From positions 186,001 through 250,000 of the forward strand of contig NZ_FOPZ01000001.1 in NCBI RefSeq assembly GCF_900113615.1: 64,000 bases of DNA, given 5' to 3'. The DNA comes from Halorubrum aquaticum (GTDB taxonomy: Archaea > Halobacteriota > Halobacteria > Halobacteriales > Haloferacaceae). A program made the translations under genes and the position numbers. The notes under the pieces were generated by a model. The model was not told the DNA's origin. It saw only the letters and a list, made by a program, of their open reading frames with translations, and searched no databases. Shown piece by piece: positions 18,834 to 30,863 of this stretch (its first letter is position 1; each line of letters begins with the position of its first letter).

Positions 18834-20315
18834 CTACCCGTCCTCGGCGTCGCATCGATCGCGCCGTCGGTCGACGACCTCCGGCGTCCCGCTCAGGATG
18901 CCGCGCATGCCCGACATCGGCTCGCCGACCTTGATCCCGTGTTCGGTGATCCGGAACTCGCGGATCGTCCGCTCGAAGTCGCTGGTCCGCTTTTTCAACA
19001 CGCCGATCGCCTTGCGGATCTCCCCGTTCACCTCGAGGTGTCGTAGAAAGACGATGTTGTCGGCGAGGTAGCTGATGTTCTCCATCGTCGCCTGGAACTC
19101 GCCCGTCACGTTTCGCGTCTCGTCGACGAAGATGGCCGTCGCGCCCGTGTTCTTGAGATAGCGACCGAGCGCGTGCATCTGTTGGAGCATCGTGCTCCCC
19201 TCGCCGCGGAGGGTGAGTCGATACCCCGAGATCCCGTCGACCATCACGATGTCGGCGTCCCGCCCTTCGACCTCCTCGCGGACCATTCGAGCGAACTCCT
19301 GGGGCGACCGTTCGAGCGCCTCGACCTCGTTCACCTGGAGGGTCCCCTTCTCGATCATCCGATCGACGGGGATGTTGACCGCCCGCGACCGGCTGAGAAA
19401 CGTCTCCTCGGTCTCCTCGAAGAGGTAGATGACCGATCGTTCCCCGCGGCCGGCCGCCTCCTTCATGAACTGCGTGGACAGCGTCGTCTTGCCGACGCCG
19501 GTCGGCCCGCTGACGATGCTGACGGTCCCGCGTTCGAGCCCGCCGTTGAGGAGCTCGTCGACCTCGGGGATCCCCGAGGAGATCTGTTCGATCTCGTACT
19601 CGCCGACGTGTTCGCCCGGCTGGAGCGCCGGATAGACCTCGATCCCTCCGTCGGTTACCCGGTAGGCGTGGTCGCCGCTCTGCGTTGAGGAACCGCGGAA
19701 CTTCGGTACGCGGATGGACCTCCCGTGCGCCTCGGTTCCCAACACGATCGTCCCGTCCGTGATGAACTCGAGGTCGTCGGTCGGCAGCGACTCCGTGTCC
19801 TGAACCGTGAACAGCACGGTCGCGTTCCGCTCCTTGAGAAACCGCATGAATCCGACGACCTGCTTGCGGAACTGGTAGTCGTCGTCGGTCAGGAATCGGA
19901 GCTGCGTCAGCGGGTCGACGACGACACGGTCCGGATCGACTTCGGTCACCCCCTCGACGATCCGCTCCGTGAGCGACTCCCGCTCGACCTCCGAGGGAGC
20001 GAACACCTCGTAGGACCGGTCCTCGGTGAAGACGTCCGCGCTCGGGCTCAGGTCGAGGAAGTCTATCGCCTCGGTGTCGAATCCCAGCGCCTCGGCGTTC
20101 GCCTTCAGGTCGTCGAGGTCCTCCTCGAGGTTGATGAAGAGCGCCGTCTCGCCTCGCTCGACGCCAGCCGCGAGAAAGTGGAGTCCGAGGATCGTCTTCC
20201 CGCTTCCCGCCCGCCCGTTGATCATGTAGCTCCGCTCCGGAACGAGTCCGCCGGACAGGACCTCATCGAGACCGCCGACGCCGGTCGAGAGTCGCTCGGA
20301 CAGTGATGGTGACAT
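18834..20315 (-). CDS. KaiC-like double-domain RecA ATPase
   Basis: A 493-residue protein with two KaiC domains. Domain 1 has the P-loop GRAGSGKT (34-41) and paired glutamates in NLEED. Domain 2 has GPTGVGKT (270-277) and FEETEE. The C-terminal part (ATMENISYLADNIVFLRHLE, then EIRKAIGVLKKR) aligns from memory with the cyanobacterial KaiC phosphorylation segment, with S415 at the Ser431 position and Y416 replacing Thr432. Archaeal homologues are ATPases with proposed signalling or timing roles. It is divergent from a LOV-domain histidine kinase. A TATA-like ATTTATA (minus strand, near 20342) is 27 nt from the ATG, so it is leaderless. Confidence 0.88.
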   Translation of the reverse strand: MSPSLSERLSTGVGGLDEVLSGGLVPERSYMINGRAGSGKTILGLHFLAAGVERGETALFINLEEDLDDLKANAEALGFDTEAIDFLDLSPSADVFTEDRSYEVFAPSEVERESLTERIVEGVTEVDPDRVVVDPLTQLRFLTDDDYQFRKQVVGFMRFLKERNATVLFTVQDTESLPTDDLEFITDGTIVLGTEAHGRSIRVPKFRGSSTQSGDHAYRVTDGGIEVYPALQPGEHVGEYEIEQISSGIPEVDELLNGGLERGTVSIVSGPTGVGKTTLSTQFMKEAAGRGERSVIYLFEETEETFLSRSRAVNIPVDRMIEKGTLQVNEVEALERSPQEFARMVREEVEGRDADIVMVDGISGYRLTLRGEGSTMLQQMHALGRYLKNTGATAIFVDETRNVTGEFQATMENISYLADNIVFLRHLEVNGEIRKAIGVLKKRTSDFERTIREFRITEHGIKVGEPMSGMRGILSGTPEVVDRRRDRCDAEDG

Positions 20316-20435
20316 CCGTAGGCCATTCGACGGGTGAACGTATAAATGCTACAAGGAAACGTGCTCGCGTTCGGGCGGCAGAGGACGTGAAGAAGGGACA
20401 ACGCTTAGTGGACGTGTACGCTTCTCTTAGGGGAA

Positions 20436-21914
20436 ATGGTCTCGGGCTCCGAAGGGATCGACGCGGGCACGAGCCGCGGCACCGAGGACCCCGAGGGCCG
20501 GTCCGTTGTCCTGTTGTTCATGCGGCCGGGACGCGACCGCGAGCTGTTGGCGGAGGCGCTGTCCGGCCGATATCGGATCGAGACGGCGACGGACGTGGCG
20601 GCACTCGAGTCGACGTTCGACTGTTGTCTCCTCGACGCCGACGGGTTCGGGCGGGCGGCCGAGGTCGTCGAATCGAGACGGGAACGGTCGGACCCCGTCT
20701 TCCTCCCGTTCGTCCTGTTGATCCCCGAGGGAACGAGCGACTCGGCCGTCGAGAACGCGTGGGAACGCGTCGACGACGTCATCGATCTCCCGGTGAAACG
20801 CGCCGAACTGGCCGCCCGGATCGAGAACCTGATCGGGCGGCGGGAGACGTCCCTGCGGCTCGCCGAGCGCGAGCGGCGGCTCGAGGAGGCGGTCGAGGAA
20901 CTGACGCTGAAGGAGCGGGCGATGGACGAGGCGCCGGTCGGCATCACGCTCGCGGAGCCGGGATCGGGAGACAACCCGATGATCTACGCGAACGCGGAGT
21001 TCGAGGAGCTCACCGGGTACGGCCCGGAGATGCTCGGGGAGGACTGTCGATTCCTCCAGGGCGAGGAGACCGACGAGGAGACGCGGACGGCGATCCGCGA
21101 GGCGATAGACGCGGAGGAACCGGTCTCCGTGGACGTCCTGAACTACCGGGCGAACGGCCGGAAGTTCTGGAACCGCCTCACGGTCGCGCCGATACGCGAC
21201 GGGAGCGGGACCGTCACGAACTACGTCGGGTTCCAGGCCGACATCACCGACCGGAAGATCCGCGAGCGCAGACTGGAGGTGATGAACCGCGTGCTCAACC
21301 ACAACCTCCGGAACAAGATGAACCTCATCGACGGCTACACGGAGCTCCTCCGCGAGGAACTCGGCGACGAACACCGGAAACCGATCGAGGTGATAGAGGA
21401 GACGACGGACGACCTCATGCGGATCGCGGAGGCGGTACGGAAGATCGACCACACGCTGTCGTCGTCCGACCCCGGGGGAGCCCCGATCGCGTTGCGCGAC
21501 CGGCTCTCGGAACTGCTGAGCACGTACGAGGGCCGATACCCGAACGCGACCTTCGCGTTGTCCGTCCCCGAAGACGACCCGCTCGAGGTCGCCGTCGTCG
21601 GGCTCTCGACGGCGATCGAGGAGGGCATCGAGAACGCGATCAAACACAACGACGACCCGAACCCGTCCGTCGAGATCCGGGTCGAGCGCCCGGATCCGGG
21701 GTGGATCGTGATCGAGATCGAGGACGACGGACCCGGGATACCCGACCACGAGACCCGAGTGCTCAGGAGCGGCGAGACATCGCTGAAACACGCCGACAGG
21801 CTGGGGATCTGGCTGATGTACTGGGTCGTGAACAGGGCGGGCGGCGACTTCTCCGTGTCCACCGGCGAGGGGGAGGGGACGACCCTTCGCCTGTCCGTTC
21901 CGACGGAGTCCTGA
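20436..21914 (+). CDS. Sensor histidine kinase with receiver-like and LOV/PAS domains
   Basis: A 492-residue soluble kinase. Residues about 22-135 resemble a receiver domain (CLLDADGF, DLPVKRAEL). Residues about 165-275 form a PAS domain with the LOV signature: GEDCRFLQG (C204 at the flavin-adduct position, Asp203 where Asn is usual), NYRANGRKFWN (N236, N246) and GFQADITDR (Q267). A HisKA-like helix follows with phosphoacceptor candidate H289 (LNHNLRNKMNLIDGY). The HATPase has ENAIKHND and EDDGPGIPD. It probably senses blue light or redox state through a flavin, then autophosphorylates. It is divergent from the KaiC-like gene 120 bp away. Confidence 0.88.
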   Translation: MVSGSEGIDAGTSRGTEDPEGRSVVLLFMRPGRDRELLAEALSGRYRIETATDVAALESTFDCCLLDADGFGRAAEVVESRRERSDPVFLPFVLLIPEGTSDSAVENAWERVDDVIDLPVKRAELAARIENLIGRRETSLRLAERERRLEEAVEELTLKERAMDEAPVGITLAEPGSGDNPMIYANAEFEELTGYGPEMLGEDCRFLQGEETDEETRTAIREAIDAEEPVSVDVLNYRANGRKFWNRLTVAPIRDGSGTVTNYVGFQADITDRKIRERRLEVMNRVLNHNLRNKMNLIDGYTELLREELGDEHRKPIEVIEETTDDLMRIAEAVRKIDHTLSSSDPGGAPIALRDRLSELLSTYEGRYPNATFALSVPEDDPLEVAVVGLSTAIEEGIENAIKHNDDPNPSVEIRVERPDPGWIVIEIEDDGPGIPDHETRVLRSGETSLKHADRLGIWLMYWVVNRAGGDFSVSTGEGEGTTLRLSVPTES

Positions 21915-28222: not shown

Positions 28223-30274
28223 TCACGCGCGGTTCCCCGCCGGGAACCACATGGAGACGCGGGTTCCGGTTGGTTCGCGGGTCTCGATCGCCAGCTCGCC
28301 GCCGGATCCCGTGACGATCCAGTGGACGAGCCAGAGCCCGAGGCCGCTCGCGTGCTCGAGTGGCGTCTCGCGTCCCTCCGAGAACACGGTCCGCTCGACC
28401 GGCGGAATGCCCGGGCCGTCGTCGGCGATCTCGACGCGATAGCCGTCGCGGTCGACCGCGACGCGTACCTCGATGTTCGCGACGGACCCGTCGTGGTGGA
28501 CGACCGCGTTCTCCAGGACGTTCCGCACCGCGGACTCGAGGAGCTCGTCGGCCGAGACCACCGCCTCCTCAGGTGCCGAGAGCGACACCGACGCGTCGGG
28601 GAACGCCGCCTCCAGCGAGTCGCACAGCCGCGGGAGCAGCGACGCGAGGTCGATCTCCGCCCGGTCGAAATCGTCGTGGAGCGCCACGTCGATCTCGCGG
28701 GCCTGATCGCTGAGGTGCGTCAGCGTCTCCACCTTCCGGTCGATCACGTCGAGGTGCTCGCGTCCCTCCCCGTCGACGTGGTCTCGAAGGAGGTCCGCGT
28801 ACCCGCCGATCACGTTCGCGTCGTTCTTCAGGTCGTGTCTGAGCACGCGGTTGAGAACCTGGAGCCGCTGTTCGTGTCTTCGCCCCTCGGTCACGTCGGT
28901 CGCGGTGATGACCACCTCGTCCGCGGCGTTCTCGAAGAGCGGCTCGATGGTCGTCTCGAAGGTGCGCCAGTCGCCGTTCTCGCGAGCGATCCGATGTTCG
29001 AACACCTGCGGTTCGCCGGTCTCCAGTGCGGCCTCGAAGCGACGTTGACACTCCTCGCGGTCCTCCGGATGGATCAGGTCGAGAACCGGCCGCCCCTCGA
29101 CCGCGGCGGCGTCGTGGCCGAGGAGCCGGTCGACGGAGGGGCTCACGTACCGGAGCAGGCCGTCGGTACCACACACGGCGATGACGTTCGGCGACTTCTC
29201 GATGAGCGCCCGGTATCGACGCTGGAGCGTCTCGCGTTCGGTGACGTCACGGAACAGGAGGACGCTCCCGCCGCGTTCGTCCCCAGATCCGGCCGTGGAG
29301 AGCGCGTGTTCGGTGACGGTGAGGAATCGGGGTCCGTTCTCGGTCTCGATGGTCACCTGCCCGGTCTCTCCGGTTCCGCCGTTCCGCACGGCGTCGACGA
29401 CCGTCGGCGCGTTCGAGAACGCCGCCTCGACCGGCCGCCCGAACTCGAGGGAGTCGAACAGCCCCCGTGACCGGTCGTTCGCGTCGACGACCCGGTCGTC
29501 GCCGTCGAGGACGACGACCCCGTCGGAGAGGTTCGTGAACACCGCCTTCCGGGCGACCGGCGAGAGGTCGAGCAGCCGGTACCGGAACACCACCCAGGCG
29601 ACGATCCCGGCCGTCACGGAGAACGAGATCGGCGTGAGATCGACGAACTCCGGCCCCAGAGACGTCCACGCGCCGATGACGCCGACGGCCATCGGAACCG
29701 TGCCGGCGGCGAACAGGAGTCCGGCCTGCCGCCGGAAGATGCCGGTCCGGTCGACCACGGCGTACCCGAGCACGAGGAAGGCGATCAGGTTCACGACGTA
29801 CGTGTACGCCGTGAACGCCAGAAGCGCGAGCGTGGGAGAATAGGTAACCGCGAGATAGCCGCCGTCGGCGATCGTGATCGAGGGGTATCGATAGAACAGG
29901 GGAACGGCACCGAGGAACCACACCGCGACGACGACCGACGCGGGGACCAGACAGATCGCCGACAGCCGTCGGGGGCGGAACCACTCCACTCGCCCGATGT
30001 ACGCCAACACGAACGCCGGCCACGCGGCCGCCAGCGTTCCGATGCCGAGCCAGACGAACCGATTCCAGAACAGCATCGCGGGGAGGGTGGTCGCCGACAG
30101 CTGGACCGCGTACGCCGTGGCCCACACCCCGGCGCCGACGGTGACGCCGAGGAACGACCGGACGAGCCACTTCGACCCGCGGAACCGGCGGACGAACGCG
30201 TAGGCCGCGAAGACGAACGACGCCGACCCGGCCACGAGGAGCGGGACCGTGTACGGCGTCGTCTGCCAGACCAT
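28223..30274 (-). CDS. 7TM-PAS-PAS sensor histidine kinase
   Basis: A 683-residue membrane kinase. Seven hydrophobic segments fill residues 8-232 (N-terminal 7TM sensing module of archaeal histidine kinases). Two PAS domains follow, at about 248-345 and 355-465. The phosphoacceptor is H480 in LNRVLRHDLKNDANVIGGY. The HATPase domain shows LENAVVHHD, ADDGPGIPP and ASGLGLWLVHWIV. The signal is unknown. No response regulator is adjacent, as common in haloarchaea. A TATA-like element (gataaaaat near 30300) supports the ATG at 30274. Confidence 0.9.
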   Translation of the reverse strand: MVWQTTPYTVPLLVAGSASFVFAAYAFVRRFRGSKWLVRSFLGVTVGAGVWATAYAVQLSATTLPAMLFWNRFVWLGIGTLAAAWPAFVLAYIGRVEWFRPRRLSAICLVPASVVVAVWFLGAVPLFYRYPSITIADGGYLAVTYSPTLALLAFTAYTYVVNLIAFLVLGYAVVDRTGIFRRQAGLLFAAGTVPMAVGVIGAWTSLGPEFVDLTPISFSVTAGIVAWVVFRYRLLDLSPVARKAVFTNLSDGVVVLDGDDRVVDANDRSRGLFDSLEFGRPVEAAFSNAPTVVDAVRNGGTGETGQVTIETENGPRFLTVTEHALSTAGSGDERGGSVLLFRDVTERETLQRRYRALIEKSPNVIAVCGTDGLLRYVSPSVDRLLGHDAAAVEGRPVLDLIHPEDREECQRRFEAALETGEPQVFEHRIARENGDWRTFETTIEPLFENAADEVVITATDVTEGRRHEQRLQVLNRVLRHDLKNDANVIGGYADLLRDHVDGEGREHLDVIDRKVETLTHLSDQAREIDVALHDDFDRAEIDLASLLPRLCDSLEAAFPDASVSLSAPEEAVVSADELLESAVRNVLENAVVHHDGSVANIEVRVAVDRDGYRVEIADDGPGIPPVERTVFSEGRETPLEHASGLGLWLVHWIVTGSGGELAIETREPTGTRVSMWFPAGNRA

Positions 30275-30395
30275 CGATACCGGAGGGATGCGAGTCGGCG
30301 ATAAAAATCGAACGGAGAACGCGAACGCTTCGGTCCGCTCTTCCGGTTCGGTGATCGATCGGTGCCGATAAGCGGGTTCCGGATCGACGGACCGT

Positions 30396-30863
30396 ATGCT
30401 CGACTCCGGCGAAGACGCGCCGACGTTCACCCTCGAGAACCAGCACGGCGAGCCGGTCTCGCTCGGCGACACCGACGCGTCGTACACGGTCGTCTACTTC
30501 TACCCGCGCGCGGACACCCCGGGCTGTACGACCGAGGCGTGCGGCTTCCGCGACGAGTGGGACGCCTTCGAGGCGGCCGGCGTCGCGGTGCTCGGGATCA
30601 GCGACGACCCCGTCGAGGACCTCGCCGACTTCGCGGCGAAACACGACCTGCCCTTCGAACTCCTCTCGGACCCCGACGGCGAGGTCGCGAGCGCGTACGA
30701 CTCCTACGGTGAAAAGGATATGTTCGGAAACGTCTTCGACGGCGTGTTCCGGAACACGTACGTCGTCGACGCCGAGGGGACGATCGCGCTCGCGTACGAG
30801 GGGGTCTCCCCGGAGGGTCACGCCGACCGGATCCTCGAGGACGTCGCGGCGCTCGGGGAGTGA
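30396..30863 (+). CDS. bcp: Peroxiredoxin, BCP/PrxQ type
   Basis: A 155-residue thiol peroxidase reducing hydrogen peroxide and organic hydroperoxides in the cytoplasm. The active site PRADTPGCTTEACGFRDEW holds the peroxidatic C44 and resolving C49 five residues later, the atypical two-cysteine PrxQ pattern. Length is typical. A TATA-like gataag is about 27 nt before the ATG. It is divergent from the 7TM kinase and convergent with the DMT transporter. Confidence 0.93.
   Translation: MLDSGEDAPTFTLENQHGEPVSLGDTDASYTVVYFYPRADTPGCTTEACGFRDEWDAFEAAGVAVLGISDDPVEDLADFAAKHDLPFELLSDPDGEVASAYDSYGEKDMFGNVFDGVFRNTYVVDAEGTIALAYEGVSPEGHADRILEDVAALGE

Follow-up and report, generated by a model that had tools for sequence, protein, structure and literature searches.

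A divergently encoded KaiC-like ATPase and LOV-type histidine kinase of Halorubrum aquaticum suggest a light-fed KaiC signalling unit linked by an N-terminal pseudo-receiver

Introduction

In cyanobacteria KaiC is coupled to a kinase, SasA. Pseudo-receivers acting in the Kai system are contained in CikA and KaiA (PMC12632262), and an N-terminal receiver-like part is described for KaiA3 (PMC11372060). In archaea, four kaiC homologues with light-dark dependent expression were reported for Haloferax volcanii. Among them, cirC encodes the two-domain type and lies downstream of orc2 and next to a gene named 'fixL' (PMC3941300). Motility and cell shape are influenced by two of the other homologues, CirA and CirD, and the accessible passages mention no such phenotype for cirC (PMC13286277). 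Haloarchaeal LOV domains, e.g. ALovD-1 of Halonotius, occur in receiver/PAS/kinase proteins and are photoactive at high salt, i.e. up to 3 M; KaiC appears nowhere in the accessible text of this report, which describes neither a partner gene nor a link to a pseudo-receiver (PMC12202551). A divergent N-terminal receiver is also known from the Bat regulators, and the accessible parts of the source do not tie it to KaiC (PMC5847659). Among the papers listed by literature searches, no title or abstract describes a KaiC-LOV kinase pairing in haloarchaea as a two-gene arrangement; the KaiC hub study of Makarova et al. 2017 may mention kinase neighbours.

Here, we analyse a locus of H. aquaticum, located in a 64-kb stretch of DNA (the window), in which a two-domain KaiC-like ATPase is encoded divergently from a LOV-type histidine kinase. 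As in the cyanobacterial system a KaiC is combined with a kinase, but unlike KaiC/SasA/CikA/KaiA the locus comes with no KaiB detected, the pseudo-receiver is N-terminal in the kinase and the KaiC-like protein stays below the circ_KaiC cut-off. It resembles CirC and 'FixL' of Haloferax, where a two-domain KaiC likewise adjoins a sensor kinase; in contrast to the window pair, the Haloferax cirC locus is arranged in tandem and its kinase has extra PAS domains, and PMC3941300 makes no mention of LOV.

Results

The open reading frames of the two-domain KaiC-like ATPase and of the divergent kinase, separated by a 120-bp gap, lie exactly where an earlier note on this DNA had placed them (Table 1). 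The KaiC-like protein is matched by PF06745 in two stretches (263 bits) and consists of two RecA-like domains in which both Walker A lysines (K40, K276), the Walker B aspartates (D134, D360) and the catalytic Glu pairs are intact; the Walker Lys and Asp residues are retained in 145/145 aligned KaiCs. S415 and Y416 occupy the two cyanobacterial phosphosites, Ser/Thr 431/432 in S. elongatus numbering, so that the Ser is present and the Thr is replaced by Tyr. This is the prevailing state, with Ser415 being retained in 142 and Tyr416 in 120 of the 145 sequences. The protein scores 176.5 bits against TIGR02655 (circ_KaiC), below the cut-off of 546 bits. Its closest named relatives are KaiCs of Halorubrum rubrum, H. 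salinum and H. californiense (83-88% identity). In H. rubrum (L089 and L232, probably one genome) and in genome G087 (L233), the KaiC of the divergent pair is broken or cut short while the partner frame is open, suggesting that KaiC is not always needed, as these two Halorubrum genomes combine a defective KaiC with an intact partner frame. In the H. aquaticum genome, a second two-domain KaiC (L139, G000:C6:37634-41132) precedes two LOV-less kinases, each of which carries the pseudo-receiver described below.

Table 1. Features of the kaiC-kinase locus (positions in the window)
Feature	Position	Strand	Basis or remark
KaiC-like ATPase ORF, two-domain, 493 aa	18834..20315	-	ORF list, Pfam, alignment
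Divergent intergenic region, 120 bp	20316..20435	.	sequence
TATA-like element, TATAAATG on +, CATTTATA towards kaiC	20341..20348	-	~26 nt before kaiC ATG
CTTAGTGG element	20404..20411	+	~25 nt before kinase ATG
Kinase ORF, 492 aa: pseudo-receiver - LOV - HisKA - HATPase_c	20436..21914	+	
N-terminal pseudo-receiver, kinase residues 22-142	20499..20861	+	receiver fold; proposed KaiC-docking domain
LOV domain, residues ~166-272: C204, Q208, N236, N246, Q267	20931..21251	+	Pfam, PDB matches, alignment
Codon of putative adduct Cys204	21045..21047	+	
HisKA-like dimerisation domain with His289	21270..21455	+	Pfam, alignment
HATPase_c kinase domain	21588..21908	+	Pfam

Both genes appear to be served from the intergenic region. 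The TATA-like element upstream of kaiC occurs as a single copy within the window and probably represents a leaderless kaiC promoter. The element on the kinase side is a candidate promoter of the kinase gene, CTTAGTG being retained in 17/18 aligned Halorubrum intergenic regions (counted by eye). One compact divergent promoter would thus serve both genes and may keep the dose of KaiC and kinase matched.

In the kinase, Pfam detects PAS_9 (residues 178-272) and HATPase_c (389-491, 55.9 bits); HisKA (283-332) stays under its cut-off, and the phosphoacceptor His is present. The LOV signature comprises GEDCRFLQG with D203-C204, NYR from residue 236, FWN from 244 and GFQ from 265, and includes Q208, N236, N246 and Q267, which we take to be the flavin-contacting Gln, Asn, Asn and Gln of LOV domains. 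The PDB entries listed as sequence matches to the kinase are LOV proteins or fusions carrying LOV (best E 8e-31). The exact coding motif GX[ND]CRFLQ has three copies in the 3.18-Mb genome, one of them in the kinase, and a reversed control pattern has none, placing the count above chance. In an alignment of 27 divergent KaiC-LOV pairs (23 surveyed including the window, and four named), C204 is retained in 26, Q208, N236, Q267 and H289 in all 27 and N246 in 25; at residue 203, 23 pairs have Asp and four have Asn, and the single exception at residue 204 is His. The LOV assignment made in the earlier note is thereby borne out, as is its remark that the adduct Cys is present and preceded by Asp instead of the usual Asn. 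We rejected the idea that Asp203 marks a dead LOV domain, since photoactive PpSB2-LOV has Asp at this position too: its QDCRFLQG-containing piece matches 7A6P along the whole length, and in a kinase engineered from it the photochemistry is that of a canonical adduct and the activity is controlled by light (PMC13322254). As this motif is photoactive there, Asp203 is compatible with photochemistry. The kinase is homologous to LOV proteins but falls outside the NCBIfam families YtvA_fam (131.7 of 250 bits) and BluLightHisKinLov (117.6 of 450 bits), as judged by these scores. Taken together, its residues make it look like a carrier of a working blue-light sensor. A full-length model of the kinase was set aside because its LOV part has low confidence (block means 41-75). 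The window encodes a further PAS kinase without LOV signature (28223-30487, minus strand), which shares 33% identity with residues 176-489 of the LOV kinase.

A LOV domain might also act mainly as a redox or oxygen sensor via flavin reduction, with light being secondary. Cys-less LOVs can signal in this way (PMC4682037), and at 10/148 haloarchaeal KaiC loci the adduct Cys is replaced by Pro with the flavin residues retained, at one by Ala and in a Halobacteriales MAG by His. For the window kinase we regard this as distinctly unlikely given the retention of the Cys among its divergent relatives. The ten KaiC-linked LOVs with Pro are L123-L129, L131, L132 and L244, all from other genera; the Ala is found in L191 and the His in L081, the named MAG.

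To follow the gene pair, 60 genomes of the host family were searched with the kinase and with KaiC, and the KaiC surroundings were compared. The addition of 100 further stretches resulted in 148 haloarchaeal KaiC loci, among the matches listed; about 20 listed KaiC rows, mostly from one genus, lie outside this set, which also excludes named loci and KaiC fragments below 300 profile positions (including L232 and L233), and the bacterial loci L104-L106 were excluded from this second, class-wide survey. All locus counts of this pair survey ignore kinship. The partner within 3.5 kb of KaiC is a kinase with Cys-containing LOV (Cys-LOV) at 55 of the 148 loci, with Cys-less LOV at 11 and another kinase at 66, and 16 loci have none; for the 49 KaiC loci of the 60 family genomes the corresponding numbers are 24, 9, 11 and 5. 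In Halorubrum, 19/22 loci have a Cys-LOV kinase within this distance. The conservation of the gene pair in relatives, which the earlier note had made decisive for its reading, was thus found within the genus and at more than a third of the class-wide loci. The exact motif G.[ND]CRFLQ is present in 20/49 kinases within 1 kb of KaiC compared to 75/1944 other HATPase_c matches of the 60 genomes, i.e. LOV is enriched beside KaiC with an odds ratio of 17 (p 4.5e-15, a statistic that ignores kinship).

In a FastTree tree of 156 KaiCs (146 haloarchaeal, 10 bacterial), every member of the clade containing the window's KaiC (22 members) and of its two-member sister group is linked to a Cys-LOV kinase. 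Across the tree, the presence and absence of LOV must have switched 14 times or more, which shows LOV not to be a fixed part of the KaiC pairing. LOV as a constant partner of KaiC was also discarded on the counts, since any LOV lies within 3.5 kb at just 66/148 loci.

The proximity of the two genes could reflect descent alone, an ordinary LOV histidine kinase sharing a promoter with a functionally unrelated KaiC. Haloarchaea have many LOV kinases, with 95 exact motifs counted over the 60 genomes, the Halorubrum gene order is inherited vertically and the outer genes look, in our reading, like housekeeping genes. We nevertheless consider this explanation unlikely, because at the 55 Cys-LOV loci the nearest kinase is either encoded divergently (24 loci) or lies co-directionally downstream of KaiC (28 loci), because KaiC-kinase pairs are present in 9/10 families sampled and because the pseudo-receiver is found almost exclusively beside KaiC. 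In tandem pairs, a possible kinase start lies at most 60 nt from the KaiC stop in 89/100 cases. Neighbourhood by mere chance was rejected based on pair conservation, LOV enrichment and pseudo-receiver co-occurrence.

The most constant part of the arrangement is the N-terminal domain of the kinase, which the earlier note had overlooked. No Pfam family matches the first ~140 kinase residues, and the N-terminal parts of ten partner proteins at other loci likewise gave no Pfam match except for one weak unrelated one; PHROGs returned nothing useful. The model of the domain (pLDDT 93.5) has a receiver fold (VIA Z 15.9, rmsd 2.1, 117 aligned; also by Foldseek), and its profile aligns with receivers at an hhalign probability of 96.8. 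Receivers are characterised by an acidic pair after strand 1 and a Lys before Pro after strand 5. The domain has the phosphoacceptor Asp (D46 of the domain, retained in at least 90%) but lacks the acidic pair, reading MRPGRD instead, and has LP in place of the KP found in the compared receivers; we therefore call it a pseudo-receiver. The KaiA and CikA pseudo-receiver structures were absent among the matches listed for its fold.

An iterated profile of the domain matches 129/138 kinases within 1 kb of KaiC, with LOV or without, compared to 7/25 kinases of control loci whose stretch contains no KaiC; some of these seven belong to KaiC clusters that the short stretch truncates. Searching the 60 family genomes with 20 aligned copies gave 60 matches, 53 within 3.5 kb of KaiC and seven away from it, numbers to be read with the profile, built from KaiC-linked proteins, favouring KaiC-linked matches. 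A pseudo-receiver lies within 1 kb at 49/49 family KaiC loci and occurs in 39/39 genomes with KaiC compared to 1/21 without (G002; p 5e-15, kinship ignored). Class-wide, 145/148 loci have it within 1 kb, among the matches listed, and one of the three others has it at 1064 bp. The association extends to bacteria: eight KaiCs (L083, L084, L086, L087, L090, L091, L092, L099) from Cyanobacteria, Chloroflexota, Acidobacteriota, Balneolota, Bacillota and Pseudomonadota have a pseudo-receiver within 1.7 kb, while five more distant bacterial loci (L097, L098, L100, L102, L103) gave no match and L096 a weak one.

Among the 16 haloarchaeal loci without kinase, the same N-terminal domain is present at 10 in a Bat-type partner. 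Three others encode a short receiver-like ORF that stands alone (scanned in two cases), one has a short pseudo-receiver-PAS ORF, and two have nothing. We thus rejected a view of these loci as lost pairs, as most hold a Bat-type or short receiver-like partner. The Bat-type partners, similar to Bat with its divergent receiver, are built as pseudo-receiver - GAF - BAT - HTH_10, unlike the window protein, which ends in a kinase. A short stand-alone receiver-like ORF right after kaiC and before any kinase was also seen at the bacterial loci L083, L084, L086 and L087 and in Haladaptatus (L082).

The pseudo-receiver also diverges together with KaiC. Over 124 pairs, its divergence correlates with that of KaiC at r 0.75, compared to 0.60 for the kinase core; the partial correlations are 0.60 and 0.23, and for distant pairs 0.45 and 0.08. 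Linked genes inherited together correlate anyway, for which the kinase core is a partial control.

For Haloferax, we identified the two-domain KaiC of six relatives as cirC-like by the cirC primers, each of which differs from its site at 0-3 of 18 bases, the spacing being 524 bases throughout; the exact forward primer is absent from the 15 Haloferax genomes. A Cys-LOV kinase lies downstream of the cirC-like KaiC in 6/6 relatives, and an Orc1/Cdc6-like gene, according to our reading, upstream in both loci inspected. As this link rests on the six relatives, H. volcanii 'FixL' would by inference be a LOV kinase. The genus of these relatives is Haloferax, one of its surveyed loci being 98.7% identical to a plasmid stretch from the named species H. 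larsenii; H. larsenii has a different KaiC locus, with kinases lacking LOV.

The light-dark dependence of the cir genes including cirC in H. volcanii (PMC3941300) and the Cys-LOV kinases adjoining the cirC relatives would fit a KaiC oscillator that is reset via LOV and serves as a circadian or diel timer. We judge this highly unlikely: KaiB is found over cut-off in 0/60 family genomes, the H. aquaticum genome itself giving no match, the Thr phosphosite is mostly Tyr and the majority of KaiC partners have no LOV. A KaiABC clock was dismissed on the missing KaiB, to which the Tyr at the Thr phosphosite adds. The earlier note had proposed a signalling or day-night module. Its first half fits our data, with a probable light input and a possible redox input in Cys-less versions, and the day-night timer finds no support in view of the missing KaiB and the replaced Thr.

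Discussion

We favour the interpretation, which we consider probable, that the window pair represents one variant of a KaiC signalling unit of two genes, whose kinase is composed of a docking pseudo-receiver, an exchangeable sensor and a kinase core. The pseudo-receiver would bind the KaiC hexamer. A KaiC-docking role is plausible since the CikA and KaiA pseudo-receivers act in the Kai system, a parallel that is no proof of descent. The sensor behind it appears to be exchangeable, being LOV here and PAS or GAF at other loci. Blue light would generate an FMN-Cys204 adduct, as suggested by the conserved residues and by the light-regulated PpSB2-LOV kinase, which shares the motif; a shift in LOV triggered by the adduct may alter autophosphorylation of His289, from which the phosphoryl group would pass to a response regulator. 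KaiC, having both catalytic sites intact, would gate the kinase or be gated by it via the pseudo-receiver. Such a coupling would be similar to that of SasA and CikA around cyanobacterial KaiC, but would operate without KaiB. The conserved pairing and the near confinement of the pseudo-receiver to KaiC suggest a light-fed KaiC signalling unit and not a copy of the cyanobacterial clock.

A more general model is put forward tentatively, at somewhat less than even odds. According to it, a KaiC subfamily of haloarchaea and some bacteria has a near-obligate docking pseudo-receiver, behind which both the sensor (LOV, Cys-less LOV, PAS or GAF) and the output (a histidine kinase or Bat-type DNA binding) are swapped. 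Light would reach archaeal KaiC through this domain, including Haloferax cirC, whose neighbouring kinase would carry LOV instead of being an oxygen sensor of the FixL kind.

The pairing bears on what archaeal KaiC-like proteins sense and on which partners they signal with. If the pseudo-receiver is the KaiC contact, the input and output of a large archaeal and bacterial KaiC family would be readable from sequence, and the light input would be testable in Haloferax, where cirC mutants exist. If true, the unit would be an example of light being coupled to KaiC without a Kai clock.
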